Shown here: piece after piece, positions 15,399-23,491 of the stretch
Layout of the letters: every line of letters begins with the position of its first letter
Numbering within the stretch: the stretch's first letter is position 1
NCBI GenBank assembly: GCA_905235845.1
Contig: CAJONG010000002.1
Location: 1 to 47,515, forward strand
Source: an uncultured Lachnospiraceae bacterium
GTDB lineage: Bacteria > Bacillota > Clostridia > Lachnospirales > Lachnospiraceae
DNA: 47,515 bases
Reading direction: 5' to 3'
Notes under the pieces: generated by a model
The model's database searches: none
Told to the model about the DNA's origin: nothing
The model's input: only the letters and a program-made list of their open reading frames with translations
Position numbers and translations under genes: made by a program

Positions 15399-17378
15399 AT
15401 GTCGAACGAGAATTCGTTTCAAAAGAAGTTTTTAAAAGATGACACTGTTTCAACAACACCGGTTTATGAGATATATGCAAGTGCGGCTCGTAGACTATGG
15501 GATCAATATTATTCTACATACGATTTACGTCCTAGAAGTATCGCAAAGGTGTCTGACGGAACAAATCGCTCGGTGAATTTTTATAAGGATAATAAGCATA
15601 TTCTGGAGATTGCTATAGGCAAAACAACCACACTGTATGTTTTAGATGATTATTTAAGAAGTAAAATACGTATTGATTATAATCAAGATCCGTCAGGACG
15701 ATATAGGCATACATTTAATACTTTTGAGGAATGCTTTGATGTAATTAATAGTGTATTGGAGAATGATGTAAAAGATAAAACTATTGAGAGGATAAGCATA
15801 ACTAGATCTAAGCTATTTGTTGCTTCGGATATGAATAACGATATGTTGGCGCAAGTTAAGGTGCTTAGAGATGAGTATAGTCAAATAGAGATATCGAATA
15901 TAGATCAGACGGGTGTCAAACAATGGAGAGCAGCATACTTTTATGATAAAAATGTGCAACGCAGGAATAATCAATTGATAGAAGTATGGTATGAAAAGCG
16001 TAATGATAGAGTGGTGTTTGTCATTGCCAAGTCACTGATGACATCAGATGAAATAATAGAATCAGACAAGAATAAACGTGCTACAGTTAATCGCGGAAGG
16101 CTATATAGATATAATTTATCACATGAAGACCTTCTTTCCTTTATCCGGGAGAAACTCGACTTATATTGCAAAGGAGATAGTAACAGTATTTCTAAATTAT
16201 CGAATATAGAAGAAATTTCTGGGGGATTATATAATATACAGCTAAGTAAAGCAGGATTAGATATAAAAGATAACTGGAAGGGAGATCCCAGAGACCGCTT
16301 TATTAAACTATTTGCACCATTAACTGATGGTTCAGAATATTATTTTAAGCGCAATACAACGGACTCTAGCGGTAAACTGTTAGAGCTATATAGAAATGGT
16401 GAGAGCAAGAGAGTAATGCTGTTTAAAGGCAAGCAGGATATGACCATTGGCGTTGCCTTTAATGGTGATTTCTATAACTATATAAAGCAGACAGTAGATC
16501 TGCCCGAAAATCAGAAGTCATATAGAACTCAACCTCACATGGATCTGTCATTGACAAAATTGTGGAATGTTGTATGTGCCGCTACAAGTAAAAGGCAGTA
16601 TATTGTTAATGCCGATGAATTGCCTGTTAAAGTTGAATCCGAGAGGGCTACGGTAATAAAACCGGTTAAAGAACAAGAGTCTCCGTTGGTAAAATACTCT
16701 TTTGTCAAGATGATAGATACCGAAAAGAGGGTTGCAGTTGTTAAATCATCTAAAGATGGGAAGAATTATGTCCGTAAAGAGTATGATCAGTATAATCTCA
16801 ACATATTTGAAAGGCTTAAAAAGGCGGATATTAAGGGAATCCCTCATATCTATGAATGCATAAAAGACAATGGTGTCTTGGTCACTATAGAGGAATTCAT
16901 AAGTGGTAGGAATATTGATGAAGTAATTGAACAGGAAGGCGTATTCGATGAGGAGGAAATGCTTCATATTGCTTTGAAACTGTGCGATATATTGGAGGAA
17001 CTTCACAAATTAGATCCTCCAATGATTCACAGGGACATTAAACCATCGAATATTATGCTTAAGAAAACAGGGGAAGTTGTCCTTATAGACTTTAACGCGT
17101 CTAGGGAGTTTAAGGAGGGATATTCACAGGATACAGTTCTTCTTGGTACTAAGAATTTTGCGTCACCGGAACAATTAATGGGTTTTGGTGACTCTGATGC
17201 AAGAACCGACATTTTTGGATTTGGTGCAACTATGAGTTATATAATGACGAAAATGCCGATTAATCAGATGGTTGCTCCCGGTAGATATAGTCAGGTATTC
17301 ACAAAATGTACCCGAATGGATAAGAAGGACAGATATCAAAGTGTATCTGAATTGAGAGAGGCGCTACTTAACACCTAA
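15399..17378 (+). CDS. Serine/threonine protein kinase with about 460-aa uncharacterised N-terminal region
   Basis: C-terminal kinase motifs: MIHRDIKPSNIML, VVLIDFNASREF, LLGTKNFASPEQ, DARTDIFGFGATM. N-terminus not recognised. Confidence 0.9.
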   Translation: MSNENSFQKKFLKDDTVSTTPVYEIYASAARRLWDQYYSTYDLRPRSIAKVSDGTNRSVNFYKDNKHILEIAIGKTTTLYVLDDYLRSKIRIDYNQDPSGRYRHTFNTFEECFDVINSVLENDVKDKTIERISITRSKLFVASDMNNDMLAQVKVLRDEYSQIEISNIDQTGVKQWRAAYFYDKNVQRRNNQLIEVWYEKRNDRVVFVIAKSLMTSDEIIESDKNKRATVNRGRLYRYNLSHEDLLSFIREKLDLYCKGDSNSISKLSNIEEISGGLYNIQLSKAGLDIKDNWKGDPRDRFIKLFAPLTDGSEYYFKRNTTDSSGKLLELYRNGESKRVMLFKGKQDMTIGVAFNGDFYNYIKQTVDLPENQKSYRTQPHMDLSLTKLWNVVCAATSKRQYIVNADELPVKVESERATVIKPVKEQESPLVKYSFVKMIDTEKRVAVVKSSKDGKNYVRKEYDQYNLNIFERLKKADIKGIPHIYECIKDNGVLVTIEEFISGRNIDEVIEQEGVFDEEEMLHIALKLCDILEELHKLDPPMIHRDIKPSNIMLKKTGEVVLIDFNASREFKEGYSQDTVLLGTKNFASPEQLMGFGDSDARTDIFGFGATMSYIMTKMPINQMVAPGRYSQVFTKCTRMDKKDRYQSVSELREALLNT

Positions 17379-17827
17379 TTATCATTTTTGCTAGTCTGAA
17401 GAGGTTCCACTCCGTTGTCAGATAGATATATATTGACATCAGCGATAGAGGGGAAATTTTCTATATTATTGAAAATATATATTATGAATGTATCCCGGCG
17501 TCTTCTGGGATACAGCTCATCGTTGCCTGAATATGCCAATGCGTGTTCAACATCTTTAAGGCTCATATGAGCGCCATAGCACAGTGCAAAGATTTTATCA
17601 CGACTTCCCTTTTTCTTGCCAGTAATAATGTCATTTGCTGTGCTTTTAGAAACATTGGCATTACGGGTTATCTCGGCCGCTGTTAATCCGGGATGATTAT
17701 AGATATATTCACTAAAAAAATCAGAAATAGTCTTACCGGATTCGATAACATCCTCAAGATCCTTTGGAGTGGCACCATCGTTGATCATATCCCATATGTT
17801 TTTTGTAGATAGTTCTCTTTTGCTCAA
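17375..17827 (-). CDS. Helix-turn-helix (XRE-like) regulator, tail-to-tail with kinase
   Basis: HTH LTAAEITRNANVSKSTANDIITGKKKGSRDKIFALCYG; stop codon overlaps kinase stop; SD on minus strand before ATG. Confidence 0.82.
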   Translation of the reverse strand: MSKRELSTKNIWDMINDGATPKDLEDVIESGKTISDFFSEYIYNHPGLTAAEITRNANVSKSTANDIITGKKKGSRDKIFALCYGAHMSLKDVEHALAYSGNDELYPRRRRDTFIIYIFNNIENFPSIADVNIYLSDNGVEPLQTSKNDN

Positions 17828-17888
17828 AATAGCCTCCTAATATACTCTAATAACTATATTATAGCGGAATCTTCAACCGATTGCTACT

Positions 17889-17905
17889 GTCCGCTAGTAG
17901 CGGAC
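17889..17905. promoter_or_regulatory. Palindromic operator candidate in divergent intergenic region
   Basis: GTCCGCTA-G-TAGCGGAC perfect inverted repeat; extra TAGCGGA half-site at 17862-17868. Confidence 0.6.
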
Positions 17906-17986
17906 CAATTATAGAAATAATAGTTGTATCATTCAGATAAAGCTAATAGCTAATAGCAAAAAGCAACGGACTGGAGGTGATACTAA

Positions 17987-18214
17987 TTGACACAAGAAGA
18001 TTTGGCCAAAATTCTTAGACAAAGATATGATTGCGCAAAACGCAATGAATCGGCAATGCAAGTCCATCTGTTTGGGATTGAATATGGAGAAGAAATCAAG
18101 CAGGGAGAATACAAGATCTCGGATATAGTTGCATTGGCTGGTTTGGATAAAGGATATGTTTCTGAGGTAAGCAAGGGTGTTAAGTTATCAACAGTTGTTG
18201 AGAGAAAACGATAA
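17987..18214 (+). CDS. Small HTH-like domain protein
   Basis: TTG start after GGAGGTGAT; LAKILRQRYDCAKRNESAMQVHLFGIEYGEEI..YKISDIVALAGLDKGYVSEVSKGVKLS resembles small HTH-like proteins common in Firmicutes accessory regions. Confidence 0.7.
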   Translation: MTQEDLAKILRQRYDCAKRNESAMQVHLFGIEYGEEIKQGEYKISDIVALAGLDKGYVSEVSKGVKLSTVVERKR

Positions 18215-18244
18215 GTGGGATTATTTGGATGGAGGATTAGAATT

Positions 18245-18538
18245 ATGTACGATATCAGGGAAGAACTTATGCAAAAAATGGTTAAGGAATTAAAGGTTGA
18301 GCAGCCTAATTATGAGATTATGTCAGATGAAGAGTATTATAACTCTGATTATGGACTAAGGCGTAGACAAAGGAATCAGACATGCTCAAACGTTGTATAT
18401 ATGCATTTCTTGGTTCCAGGTGTAGCAAAGAATCTGTTTGGTGCATATTTCCACAAGAAGGATATAGCAGTCGCAGTTCCGATGGACTTTGAGGCATTCA
18501 CAACTAAACTTAATATCGAGCGAACCCTAAAATTTTGA
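18245..18538 (+). CDS. Hypothetical protein
   Basis: 98 aa from ATG 18245 after GGAGG; lies between HTH-like and DUF2130 genes. Confidence 0.6.
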   Translation: MYDIREELMQKMVKELKVEQPNYEIMSDEEYYNSDYGLRRRQRNQTCSNVVYMHFLVPGVAKNLFGAYFHKKDIAVAVPMDFEAFTTKLNIERTLKF

Positions 18539-18559
18539 TTGTTTGTGTGGAGGTTTATT

Positions 18560-19783
18560 ATGGCAGAACTAAAATGTCCCCATTGTGGACAGGCTTTTAC
18601 GGTTGATGGTACGGAACTTAGTTCTATTGTTAAGCAGATCCGTGATGCTGAATTTGAACGAGATTTACAAGTTAGAGTGGATGAACTCAAGGGACACTTG
18701 AACAGCTTGCATGAATCTGAACTTAAAAGCGCACTTGCAGAAGCAGAGGTGGCTAAGAACGATAAGTTTGAAAAAGAAAAAGAGAAATTTAGCAAGGACA
18801 TGCAGAAACTAGAAGCTGATAAGACCAAGCTTGAAGCAAAGATCCAGAAGCTTGAGGCGGCTCTTGACAGCAGTGAGGATAAGAAACAGATTGCGGTGAT
18901 GGAAGCCGTGAAGGAGGCTGAGGATAAGACGCATGACCTTGAGAAAGATCTTCTGAATGAGAAAGAGAATACCAAGGTTCTCTTGGCTGAAAAAGATGCG
19001 CAGATTGAATTTTATAGAGATCTTAAGGCTAAGATGTCTACAAAGATGGTAGGCGAGACTCTGGAGCAACACTGTGAGATTCAGTTTAATCAAATCCGAG
19101 CAACGGCATTTAAGAATGCTTATTTTGAGAAGGACAATGATGCCCGTACCGGTAGCAAGGGCGACTACATCTTCCGCGAAGAGGATGAGTACGGTAACGA
19201 GATTGTATCTATCATGTTCGAGATGAAGAACGAGAGTGATACGACGGCTACCAAGCATAAGAATGAGGACTTCTTTAAGGAACTGGATAAGGACAGGAGA
19301 GAGAAGAATTGTGAATATGCTGTTCTTGTGACCCTGCTTGAATCGGACAGTGAACTATATAATGGCGGTATAGTGGATGTGTCGTATAAGTACGACAAGA
19401 TGTATGTAGTTCGGCCGCAGTGTTTTATACCGATTATCACACTGCTCCGTAATGCGGCTCTCAATGCCCTTTCATACAAACAAGAACTTGCTGAAGTTCG
19501 GAGTCAGGATATCGATATCTCTAACTTTGAGGATTCATTGCTTAAGTTCAAGGATGATTTCGGTAAGAACTATAGTCTTGCCCATAGCCATTTTGATAAG
19601 GCGATAGACGAGATTGATAAGACAATTCAGCATTTAGAGAAAGTAAAGGCAGAACTTCAGGGATCAGATAGGCAACTTCGTATTGCAACTGGAAAGGTTG
19701 AAGATGTTTCAGTTAAGAAACTGACTAAGGACAACCCCACGATGCAGGCAAAGTTTGAAGAATTGAAGAAGAAAAAACATTAA
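18560..19783 (+). CDS. DUF2130 family protein (coiled coil plus PD-(D/E)XK-like core)
   Basis: N-terminal CPHCGQAF, long coiled coil, MVGETLEQHCEIQFNQIRATAFKNAYFEKDNDARTGSKGDYIFRE..IMFEMKNESDTTATKHKNEDFFKELDKDRREKNCEYAVLVTLLE. Confidence 0.9.
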   Translation: MAELKCPHCGQAFTVDGTELSSIVKQIRDAEFERDLQVRVDELKGHLNSLHESELKSALAEAEVAKNDKFEKEKEKFSKDMQKLEADKTKLEAKIQKLEAALDSSEDKKQIAVMEAVKEAEDKTHDLEKDLLNEKENTKVLLAEKDAQIEFYRDLKAKMSTKMVGETLEQHCEIQFNQIRATAFKNAYFEKDNDARTGSKGDYIFREEDEYGNEIVSIMFEMKNESDTTATKHKNEDFFKELDKDRREKNCEYAVLVTLLESDSELYNGGIVDVSYKYDKMYVVRPQCFIPIITLLRNAALNALSYKQELAEVRSQDIDISNFEDSLLKFKDDFGKNYSLAHSHFDKAIDEIDKTIQHLEKVKAELQGSDRQLRIATGKVEDVSVKKLTKDNPTMQAKFEELKKKKH

Positions 19784-19837
19784 TTGGTGCAAGGAGTGCA
19801 ATTGCGGCTATAGGGATGGACGATTTGAGTACACATT

Positions 19838-19869
19838 GAGGGAGACTTGACTGGTCGCCCTCTTTTTTT
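19838..19869 (+). terminator. Rho-independent terminator
   Basis: GAGGGAGACTTGACTGGTCGCCCTCTTTTTTT (one internal mismatch). Confidence 0.75.
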
Positions 19870-19877
19870 ATGTTCAA

Positions 19878-19932
19878 ATTTACTCATTGAGTGAGGAAGA
19901 ATAATGTGATGGCATATACTCAATGAGTAAAT
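19878..19932. repeat. 15-bp perfect inverted repeat upstream of brnT
   Basis: ATTTACTCATTGAGT (19878-19892) and ACTCAATGAGTAAAT (19918-19932), 25-bp spacer. Confidence 0.9.
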
Positions 19933-19989
19933 GTGCCTCCGATGATTGTAAATACATTATAATTATAGTATAATTATAGAAAGAATCTT

Positions 19990-20277
19990 ATGATGTACCG
20001 ATTTGAATGGGACGAAGATAAGAACCAGAGGAATATTATTAAACATGGTATATCGTTTTCAGAGGCAAGTTCTGTTTTTGGTGATGAAGCAGCAATACTG
20101 TTTGATGACCCTGAACACTCTGAAGATGAAGAACGATTCTTACTGATTGGTATGAGTAATAAAGCAAGAGTGTGCATTGTTTGCCATTGCTTTAGAGAAT
20201 CGGACAACGTAATACGCATTATTTCTGCCAGAAAGGCAACAACGACGGAGGAAAGAAGATATGTTAGAGGAATATGA
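19990..20277 (+). CDS. brnT: BrnT family toxin
   Basis: FEWDEDKNQRNIIKHGISFSEASSVFGDE..FDDPEHSEDEERFLLIGMSNKARVCIVCHCFRESDNVIRIISARKATTTEERRY. Confidence 0.94.
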   Translation: MMYRFEWDEDKNQRNIIKHGISFSEASSVFGDEAAILFDDPEHSEDEERFLLIGMSNKARVCIVCHCFRESDNVIRIISARKATTTEERRYVRGI

Positions 20278-20476
20278 TATTGATAATCTTAATCCAAGAC
20301 CTAATCCGTATGCGAAGGAATTAAAGAAGCAAGTGACCATTAAGATGTCACCAACCGTTATTGATTATTTTAAGGGTGAGGCTACAGAGATCGGAATGCC
20401 GTATCAGACGCTAATAAACTTATATCTGATGGACTGCGTCAAGTCGCACAAAAAGTTGGATATGCGTTGGAAGTAG
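20261..20476 (+). CDS. brnA: BrnA-like (CopG/RHH) antitoxin
   Basis: LKKQVTIKMSPTVIDYFKGEATEIGMPYQTLINLYLMDCV; overlaps brnT end by 17 bp. Confidence 0.9.
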   Translation: MLEEYDIDNLNPRPNPYAKELKKQVTIKMSPTVIDYFKGEATEIGMPYQTLINLYLMDCVKSHKKLDMRWK

Positions 20477-20714
20477 TAGGTCTGTTTTGACATTAAAAAT
20501 GGACTGCTGTATTTGTTGAGGAAATAAAGATTATGAGTGATGATACTTATTACATAGAGACGAAGAAGTGAATGAAAACGTCTCGGGTGGCTTGAATTTT
20601 CAATTTTCGGGAGGCTTGAAGATGCGGGAGCCTGCTTGATTTTGATTGGTAGAGGAGAGTCCTTTTCATGTTATAATACATTTGAAGAATATTTTGATCA
20701 CAAAGGAGAGCTCT

Positions 20715-21887
20715 ATGCCGTTTCAGATAGTTAGAAATGATATTACAAAAATGCATGTTGATGCCATAGTCAATACAGCTAATCCCATGCCGGGGTACGG
20801 TTCGGGAATAGATACAGCCGTCTATGAAGCGGCAGGTGTAGAGAGGCTTCTTGCCAAGCGCCAGGAGATTGGTGTAATCGAACGCGGGCATTCTGTGATC
20901 ACGGCCGGATATGATCTGCCTGCCAAGTACATCATCCATACCGTGGGCACAGCATGGCAGGGTGGTGATCAAGGTGAGGAGGATATCATCCGTGATTGTT
21001 ACCGCAGTGTATTTGAGCTGGCTGTCACGAATGATGTGGAGAGTCTGGCGATACCGCTTCTTGCATCAGGTTCATATGGTTTTCCGAAGGGTATAGCACT
21101 TCGGATCGCGTTATCTGAGATCGAGTCATTTATGGCGGACCATGATCTTGAGTTATATCTGGTCGTATTTGATGAGAAATCTTTTGCATTGTCCTCTGAA
21201 TTGTATGGGGATATCGATGCATATATCAACGATAACTATGTAGAAGAGAAGGTTAAAGAAGAGTACCACGTAAGTCATATATCTGAGCCTGAAGGAACAC
21301 CGGTGGCGTCAGCAATGTCTGTGATGGGAAGCGCGGAAGAACCACGCGGTCGAGGAACCGGACTGTCAGATATCATATCCGGCATCAGGACTAAGGATAA
21401 GAAGGCTGCTAAGTCAAAGCCATCGAGCGAAGGTATGGAGTATGACACATTTCCATACGAAGATGCTGAGATTGAGACCATGATCTGTGCAACATCCTTT
21501 GAATCGCACAAGAGTCTTGACGATGTGGTCAATAACCTCGATAAGACATTTATGGAAATGGTCTTCTCTTTTGCAGATGAGAAGGGCATGACGGATGTCG
21601 AAGTCCAGAAGAGGGCTAATCTTGACAGGAAGGCATTCTCAAAGCTTAAGTGCGGCACGACTAAGAATCCGAGCAAGGCTACGGCACTGGCCCTGGCAGT
21701 TGCGCTTATGCTTAACCTCGATGATACCAAGGATCTTCTTTCCAGGGCAGGGTTTGCCCTGTCGCCATGCAGCAAGCAGGACCTTATCGTTCAGTATTTT
21801 ATAGAACGCGAGGTTTATGACATATACGCTATCAATATAGCTTTATTCGAGCACGGAGAGCAGCCTCTAGGCACTCAGATCATATAA
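20715..21887 (+). CDS. Macro domain protein with C-terminal HTH-like domain
   Basis: MPFQIVRNDITKMHVDAIVNTANPMPGYGSGIDTAVYEAAG..YIIHTVG..LLASGSYGFPKGIALRIA; C-terminus VEVQKRANLDRKAFSKLKCGTTKNPSKATALALAVALMLNLDDTKDLLSRAGFALSP. Confidence 0.93.
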   Translation: MPFQIVRNDITKMHVDAIVNTANPMPGYGSGIDTAVYEAAGVERLLAKRQEIGVIERGHSVITAGYDLPAKYIIHTVGTAWQGGDQGEEDIIRDCYRSVFELAVTNDVESLAIPLLASGSYGFPKGIALRIALSEIESFMADHDLELYLVVFDEKSFALSSELYGDIDAYINDNYVEEKVKEEYHVSHISEPEGTPVASAMSVMGSAEEPRGRGTGLSDIISGIRTKDKKAAKSKPSSEGMEYDTFPYEDAEIETMICATSFESHKSLDDVVNNLDKTFMEMVFSFADEKGMTDVEVQKRANLDRKAFSKLKCGTTKNPSKATALALAVALMLNLDDTKDLLSRAGFALSPCSKQDLIVQYFIEREVYDIYAINIALFEHGEQPLGTQII

Positions 21888-21983
21888 ATATCAAATGTCG
21901 CCTGACAAGTGACCGTTGGGCCTCTTTCAAGAAATATAATGACCTCAGTAACAGATAAACATCACCTTACGGAGGTAATCATT

Positions 21984-22676
21984 ATGAGAGAGAACTTAAC
22001 GGAACTTGTATTTATTCTTGACAGAAGCGGATCCATGAGCGGCCTGGAATCAGACACGATCGGAGGCTTCAATTCCCTTATTAAAAAACAGAAGAAAGAA
22101 GAAGGAGAGGCGGTAGTCTCTACAGTCCTTTTTGACGATGTGAGCGAGGTCATTCACGACAGGATGCCCATAGCCGATGTCAAGAAGCTGACAGAGAAGG
22201 ACTACTATGTGAGAGGATGCACGGCGTTATTCGATGCAGTAGGTGATGCTATACATCATATCGGCAATGTCCAGAAATACGCCCGTGAAGAGGACAGACC
22301 CGGTAAGACTTTATTCGTGATCACGACAGACGGCCTGGAGAATGCCAGCAGGAGGTACAAGATCAAAGAGATCAAGAAGATGATCAAACGTCAGACCGAG
22401 AAGTATAACTGGGAGTTCATATTCTTAGGTGCAAATATTGATGCGATCGAGGTTGCCGGCAGCATGGGGATCAAGGCAGACAGGGCGGCGAACTATCACT
22501 GCGATGAAGTCGGGACAGCTCTTAACTATGCAGTCTTGGAAGAGACTGTATCACTTGTCAGAAAAAGCGCTCCCGCTATGATGCATGCGACACTTGCAGG
22601 CGGTGCATGGAAGGCTAAGATCGATAGGGATTATGATGACAGAAGTGATAAGAAGAACATAAAGAGGAGGGCGTGA
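21984..22676 (+). CDS. VWA domain protein (TerY-like)
   Basis: ELVFILDRSGSMSGLESDTIGGFNSLIKKQK, VRGCTALFDAVGDAIHHI, LFVITTDGLENAS: MIDAS DxSxS..T..D. Confidence 0.92.
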   Translation: MRENLTELVFILDRSGSMSGLESDTIGGFNSLIKKQKKEEGEAVVSTVLFDDVSEVIHDRMPIADVKKLTEKDYYVRGCTALFDAVGDAIHHIGNVQKYAREEDRPGKTLFVITTDGLENASRRYKIKEIKKMIKRQTEKYNWEFIFLGANIDAIEVAGSMGIKADRAANYHCDEVGTALNYAVLEETVSLVRKSAPAMMHATLAGGAWKAKIDRDYDDRSDKKNIKRRA

Positions 22677-22678
22677 TC

Positions 22679-23491
22679 ATGATCGGAGCTATATTAGGTG
22701 ATATCGTGGGTTGTCCATATGAGTTCGACAGAAGCCCTAAGATCAAAGACTTTGGCCCTTTGTTCATAGAGAGTTCTATGTATACGGATGACACCGTGAT
22801 GACCATAGCGGTAGCGGACGGACTGATGAATGCGGGCCTTGATGCGGATGCTGAGAGTATCCGTCATGAAATAGTAAGGTCCATGAAAGCATGGGGAAGG
22901 AAGTATCCCAGTGCAGGATATGGCGGAAGGTTCATATGGTGGCTGCAGTTAGATGATGATAATCCTTACGGAAGCTGGGGCAACGGTTCGGCAATGAGAG
23001 TGTCCTCGGCAGGCTGGCTTTATGACACCATAGAGCGGACCAGAGAGGTGGCAAGGGCTACGGCTGAAGTCACGCATAACCACCCCGAAGGCATAAAAGG
23101 TGCGGAAGCAACGGCTTCTGCCATATACCTTGCAAGGACAGGCAAGTCAAAGGATGAGATCAAGCAGTATATCATCGATGAATTCGGATATGATCTGTCC
23201 GGAACCCTTGATGATATACGACAGAATTATCACCATGTGGAGAGTTGTCAGCAGACAGTTCCTGAAGCGATAACGGCATTCCTTGAAGGAAATGACTTTG
23301 AGGATGTTGTCAGGAATGCTGTGTCATTGGGAGGAGATTGCGATACGCTCACATGTATTGCATCCGGGATCGCAGAGGCATTCTATGGTATTCCGGAGAA
23401 CTATAAGGCGGAGGCTTTAAGCCGCATAGAAGACGATATGAGGGATGTGTATAGCCGGTTTTGCCAATTGATTAAGGAGGATTTTTCATGA
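22679..23491 (+). CDS. ADP-ribosylglycohydrolase family protein (DraG-like)
   Basis: MIGAILGDIVGCPYEFD, MYTDDTVMTIAVADGL, GNGSAMRVSSAGW, AVSLGGDCDTLTCIASGIAEAFYG. Confidence 0.94.
   Translation: MIGAILGDIVGCPYEFDRSPKIKDFGPLFIESSMYTDDTVMTIAVADGLMNAGLDADAESIRHEIVRSMKAWGRKYPSAGYGGRFIWWLQLDDDNPYGSWGNGSAMRVSSAGWLYDTIERTREVARATAEVTHNHPEGIKGAEATASAIYLARTGKSKDEIKQYIIDEFGYDLSGTLDDIRQNYHHVESCQQTVPEAITAFLEGNDFEDVVRNAVSLGGDCDTLTCIASGIAEAFYGIPENYKAEALSRIEDDMRDVYSRFCQLIKEDFS

Follow-up and report, generated by a model that had tools for sequence, protein, structure and literature searches.

The window analysed here is a 47,515-nucleotide stretch (positions 1 to 47,515 of contig CAJONG010000002.1, assembly GCA_905235845.1) from an uncultured Lachnospiraceae bacterium, whose genome is 79% complete. 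It carries a small helix-turn-helix (HTH) protein, P0001, next to a Ser/Thr protein kinase, P0003, and farther along a macro-domain protein, P0002, followed by genes for a VWA protein and an ADP-ribosylglycohydrolase (ARG) (Table 1). A first-pass annotation, made from the letters alone, had proposed that P0001 and the C-terminus of P0002 share a regulatory domain, which could place kinase signalling and ADP-ribose processing in one system. Both C-terminal sequences were found as it had quoted them (17375-17827, minus strand; 20715-21887, plus strand), and the tail-to-tail position of P0001 and a PF00069 kinase was borne out. P0001 looks like a real gene, with its TTG start a few bases past an AGGAGG sequence and a TATAAT-like box upstream. 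We find that P0001 and the tail of P0002 represent the two long-diverged families of an undescribed domain, here named HTHC, which consists of a Cro/C1-type HTH core and two conserved C-terminal helices. The kinase-associated family is referred to as HTHC-K and the macro-associated family as HTHC-M.

Table 1 Features of the window discussed in the text (aa, amino acids)
Feature	Position	Strand	Remarks
Ser/Thr protein kinase P0003, 659 aa	15399..17378	+	PF00069; kinase domain, residues 436-656
HTHC-K protein P0001, 150 aa	17375..17827	-	TTG start; 4 bp tail-to-tail overlap with kinase gene
HTHC domain of P0001	17417..17728	-	Residues 34-137; AlphaFold, hhalign, Foldseek
Thr8 of P0001, candidate phosphorylation site	17804..17806	-	N-terminal, start of first helix
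Macro-HTHC-M protein P0002, 390 aa	20715..21887	+	ATG start at 20715
MacroD/YmdB-like macro domain of P0002	20724..21173	+	Residues 4-153; PF01661, 92 bits
Post-macro helix IDAYINDNY of P0002	21213..21239	+	Residues 167-175
HTHC-M domain of P0002	21516..21851	+	Residues 268-379; blocks with pLDDT 66-93, preceding linker about 30
VWA protein with DRSGS MIDAS motif	21909..22676	+	Likely start ATG at 21984; phrog_7371, E 1.9e-56
ADP-ribosylglycohydrolase (ARG, DraG-type)	22673..23491	+	PF03747, 134 bits; closes the macro module

The relationship is detectable between the two single sequences, which aligned by BLASTP over 128 columns at 25% identity (E 4e-4); used as a query, each tail retrieved the other across the whole genome with an E-value of about 2e-5. 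Profiles built from 26 kinase-type relatives (A2) and 14 macro-type relatives (A3) were compared by hhalign and gave a score of 115 over 110-121 columns (E 1.1e-19, probability 99.2). As controls, a generic Cro/C1 HTH set from the same bacterial family scored 32 against A2 or A3, and 100 column-permuted profiles reached at most 22.6. The region C-terminal to the HTH matched on its own with a score of 35.5 (E 6.8e-8), the permuted maximum being 20.7. These scores confirm a common module beyond a generic HTH in the kinase-associated and macro-domain proteins, and the alignment along the whole tail holds, spanning the entire Cro/C1-like HTH and the two further helices. The shared ending L.(D/E).G..PL, read by eye in the first-pass annotation, is no family signature: only Leu positions are common to both endings, because the usual macro-type ending is close to L-F-x-x-x-Q-P-L-L-G.

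AlphaFold models of the two proteins agree with this architecture. P0001, modelled from an alignment that contained macro-type rows, reached a predicted local distance difference test (pLDDT) score of 82 and a predicted template modelling score of 0.72, with a five-helix Cro/C1-like core at residues 34-99. In the model of P0002 (mean 67.6), the macro and C-terminal parts were good and the linker disordered. Compared by residue ranges, seven helices pair one to one and in order (P0001/P0002): 34-44/279-289, 50-57/294-300, 61-69/305-313, 76-85/321-330 and 90-99/335-344 in the core, followed by 110-120/354-364 and 128-137/370-379. Foldseek placed P0001 with 6rnz, 2cro and 3zkc (template modelling scores by target 0.74-0.78, E-values 0.086 or worse), and together with the modelled helices this gives P0001 the five-helix HTH fold of the Cro/C1 type (XRE superfamily), shared with families such as SinR, DdrO, ClgR and 434 Cro. 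No PDB entry matched P0001 in Foldseek at an E-value of 0.001 or better, and matches were mostly confined to the Cro/C1 core; for the two extra helices and the N-terminal extension, which set HTHC apart from these families, Foldseek found no solved counterpart.

The two families are both common among 329 genomes of the family Lachnospiraceae (as judged by named relatives), of which 164 match A2 and 143 match A3; after sorting by hand on E-value, HTHC-K was present in 88 of the 329, about a quarter. In a tree, 72 of 74 HTHC-M rows form one clade (support 100/99), the two stray rows being badly chosen stretches, and the split between HTHC-K and HTHC-M in it is deep. In the phylum as a whole, the macro type outnumbers the kinase type, and among its named carriers are megaplasmids or plasmids of Peptoclostridium, Selenomonas, Vescimonas and Niallia.

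Gene neighbourhoods were surveyed at about 120 loci, mostly from Lachnospiraceae and many in draft genomes, with 63 HTHC-K and 61 HTHC-M genes counted; the kinase and VWA profiles used for adjacency were derived from the neighbourhoods of these same loci. HTHC-K proteins are about 150 residues long, and 51 of 63 have a kinase gene within 1.5 kb, in divergent (34), co-directional (13) or, as in the window, convergent (4) layout. A kinase also adjoins HTHC-K in 77/79 named close relatives, a figure that is not independent because these form a close cluster. Among 30 generic HTH_26 loci used as a control, a kinase was found in one only, itself an HTHC-K locus. Distances among HTHC-K proteins and among their kinase partners correlate (r 0.75; shuffled null maximum 0.29). 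At least three kinase forms occur beside HTHC-K, with C-terminal membrane segments, with an N-terminal zinc-ribbon, or, as in the window, with a 430-residue N-terminus. The remaining neighbours differ by kinase form, and the kinase is therefore the constant partner of HTHC-K. At zinc-ribbon kinase loci (L096, L097, L162, L164, L174, L188), a second, ordinary XRE protein of about 112 residues (HTH_3) follows HTHC-K, and at membrane-segment kinase loci (L082, L086, L168, L178, L376), unassigned proteins of 311, 147 (weakly VanZ-like) and 123 residues do so.

The kinase of the window is of the Hanks type, with a PF00069 score of 89 bits (cut-off 31.7), the motif HRDIKPSN at residue 544 and the metal-binding Asp; at residue 564, DFN replaces DFG. 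Among the kinases beside HTHC-K (L062-L101, L162-L201, L313-L392), DFN or DMN stands in 111 of 123 readable motifs and DFG in only 4. The N-terminal 430 residues of P0003 (window 15399-16700) have no Pfam match and the appearance of repeated small alpha/beta units.

Among 141 distinct HTHC-K sequences (43% mean identity) that cover the position of Thr8 in P0001, 140 have a Thr and none a Ser at this N-terminal site; the sole exception is a tandem copy at one locus (L197). Its context is mostly K-x-T-x-(D/E)-L. By a rough regular expression, the comparable position varies in HTHC-M, the family without a kinase partner. With moderate confidence, we hypothesize that the two HTHC families serve different ends, HTHC-K as a kinase substrate switched at Thr8 and HTHC-M as an arm of an ADP-ribose module. 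HTHC-K would then be the dedicated substrate, and likely the effector, of the Ser/Thr kinase encoded beside it: once phosphorylated, the invariant Thr would shift the N-terminal helices relative to the HTH domain, and this shift would switch the contacts of HTHC-K with DNA or with another protein. Thr8 offers a named and testable target for many orphan Ser/Thr kinases of gut Lachnospiraceae.

Several observations weigh against such a switch. The window kinase has the DFN form, and 12 of the 63 HTHC-K genes have no kinase within 1.5 kb, although the Thr is retained in most of these. Correlated distances also arise from co-inherited linked genes without physical contact. The window proteins score below the Pfam HTH cut-offs (MarR_2 17.9, cut-off 27; HTH_26 15.6, cut-off 22), and inspection by eye of the short spacers in divergent pairs (mostly 53-63 bp) revealed no obvious palindromic operator. 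Finally, Thr8 caps the N-terminus of a predicted helix in a stretch modelled with a pLDDT of about 50, and its invariance could be structural. A rival explanation makes HTHC-K a plain autoregulator that represses the kinase gene, with Thr8 a mere helix cap that is never phosphorylated. The Cro/C1-like core, the short spacer shared by the many divergent pairs and the Thr at a helix start would all fit a repressor, but the co-directional and convergent pairs have no need of a shared promoter, and the lack of a clear palindrome by eye counts against it as well. Helix N-caps normally tolerate Ser, Asp or Asn, in contrast to the nearly unbroken Thr of HTHC-K, and the fact that Ser never occurs speaks for a specific role over a structural one. 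We regard such autoregulation as rather unlikely.

A small HTH protein adjoining a kinase also recalls toxin-antitoxin or abortive-infection pairs, such as HipA-HipB or single-kinase defence. The kinase domain resembles the PD-T4-6 and mad6 kinases of PADLOC, and phages carry macro and VWA families; the PADLOC matches span the generic kinase domain only, however, the kinase is Hanks-type and not HipA, the usual order is divergent rather than an overlapping operon, and the broad co-inheritance resembles regulation. We consider a role of this kind highly improbable. HipBA itself was set aside as a candidate, since the kinase matches PF00069 with no HipA match and the pairs are mostly divergent.

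Hanks-type Ser/Thr kinases with a dedicated HTH-containing regulator are known from PknH-EmbR, whose genes are linked, and from AfsK-AfsR. The substrate reading of HTHC-K is alike in pairing such a kinase with an HTH protein. Unlike these regulators, HTHC-K consists of a Cro/C1-like core and two helices without FHA, SARP or TPR parts, and its phosphorylation is a prediction. AfsR, of the AfsK-AfsR kinase-regulator pair, is treated in PMC10936776. In the open-licence literature, no description was found of an HTHC-K/kinase or an HTHC-M/VWA pair.

HTHC-M has partners of its own. It is fused to a macro domain in 53 of 61 cases, and a VWA gene lies within 1.5 kb of 39/61, downstream on the same strand in 34 of these; an ADP-ribosylglycohydrolase follows downstream in 10/61. 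Distances of HTHC-M and VWA correlate (r 0.46; null maximum 0.21), as calculated from best-scoring domain stretches. In the eight HTHC-M proteins without a macro domain, a VWA gene still adjoins in six. A helix of the form IDxYIDxNY follows the macro domain in 57 of 65 proteins with both domains and was found in 8/9 macro-less HTHC-M and 0/12 macro-only proteins. Since the VWA neighbour and this helix persist without the macro domain, the VWA partner tracks HTHC-M and not the macro domain, and our guess is that the helix contacts VWA. Helices of this type were seen in the window and in HTHC-M proteins of loci L062-L241. Many proteins annotated as O-acetyl-ADP-ribose deacetylases thus have, at their C-terminus, an unannotated domain that comes with a conserved VWA partner of its own.

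The macro domain of P0002 belongs to the MacroD/YmdB class by its PF01661 match and the presence of the catalytic Asn23 and Asp33, and its top Foldseek matches were E. coli YmdB, human MacroD2 and the O. iheyensis macrodomain. It shares the fold and the Asn/Asp pair with YmdB and MacroD2 and differs from them in that HTHC-M is fused to it, with the conserved helix and a disordered linker in between. Catalytic residues are retained in the macro domain, ADP-ribosylglycohydrolase and kinase of the window; some macro clades carry Cys or Val at the expected Asp position. The MacroD-like domain and the ADP-ribosylglycohydrolase may strip ADP-ribose off macromolecules, or sense free ADP-ribose, with HTHC-M as a partner- or nucleic-acid-binding arm and the VWA protein as a partner or peptide-binding chaperone.

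ARG-centred systems, which combine an ADP-ribosylglycohydrolase with VWA and sometimes a macro domain and SseB, are a proposed countermeasure to viral ADP-ribosylation; they have been reported from actinobacteria, planctomycetes and proteobacteria and there include Nudix- or WYL-HTH regulators and phosphatases (Viruses 2022, PMC9503650). As in those systems, ARG and VWA occur together at 21909-23491 of the window, with no ADP-ribosyltransferase found among the scanned window proteins or recurring nearby, and an ARG-SseB fusion adjoins the HTHC-M gene at another locus (L237). Unlike them, the present module is found in Bacillota, has the macro-HTHC protein at its centre and contains ARG in a minority of loci. 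Neither a Nudix- or WYL-HTH regulator nor a phosphatase was found among the scanned window proteins or scanned recurrent neighbours, and the macro-HTHC protein may stand in for such regulators. DarTG was rejected as a candidate, as no DarT ADP-ribosyltransferase occurs among the eight scanned window proteins (15.4-23.5 kb) and no such family recurs beside HTHC-M. For a TerY-P triad of VWA, PP2C and kinase, no PP2C was present among the same eight proteins.

The proposal of a single system for kinase signalling and ADP-ribose processing fared less well than the shared module and the conserved gene partner of each form, both of which stand. None of the 63 HTHC-K genes has a VWA, ADP-ribosylglycohydrolase or macro gene within 1.5 kb, and a kinase is found beside HTHC-M in 1/61. 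Co-occurrence is weak, with both types in 36 genomes against 27 expected (odds ratio 1.8, p 0.014), in a statistic that ignores phylogeny and genome size and uses genome counts sorted by hand from E-values. With this window left out, two genomes have both types within 15 kb against 0.56 expected (P 0.11). From adjacency, presence per genome and closeness, the two forms are thus linked by common ancestry, while little suggests that they work together, and we take the two modules to be separate, merely lying near each other in the window. An integrated pathway, in which HTHC-K kinase signalling and HTHC-M ADP-ribose processing share a target, for example through mixed complexes of the two HTHC forms or an operator common to both, would account for their presence within 4 kb here, for both types on one contig in G002, G028 and G198, and for the slight excess of genomes with both. 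Against it stand the lack of any adjacency at the 63 HTHC-K loci, closeness within chance elsewhere, the deep split of the families, the many genomes with one type and mostly without the other, and, in G028, a nearby HTHC-K that has no kinase. We consider such a pathway improbable.

A broader role is offered here tentatively, as a rather unlikely extension: HTHC may be a general output domain in Bacillota, controlled by threonine phosphorylation in HTHC-K, by ADP-ribose in HTHC-M (together with macro, VWA and ARG), and carried as well by cellular and phage proteins of metallopeptidase type. A binding surface of one kind would then read several signals, perhaps in phage defence, and a single binding domain would have become connected to two modes of protein modification. 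One locus (L241:5878-8433) encodes an 851-residue protein that ends in an HTHC domain and also contains a YgjP-like metallopeptidase part and a weak M78-like stretch. Phage family phrog_4031 matches residues 241-842 of this protein (E 1.2e-138), and phages therefore carry the same HTHC tail; macro and VWA families occur in phages too. In the window, a gene for a BrnT-type ribonuclease toxin (19990-20277), overlapped by a 71-residue BrnA-like open reading frame (20261-20476), lies just upstream of the macro gene.

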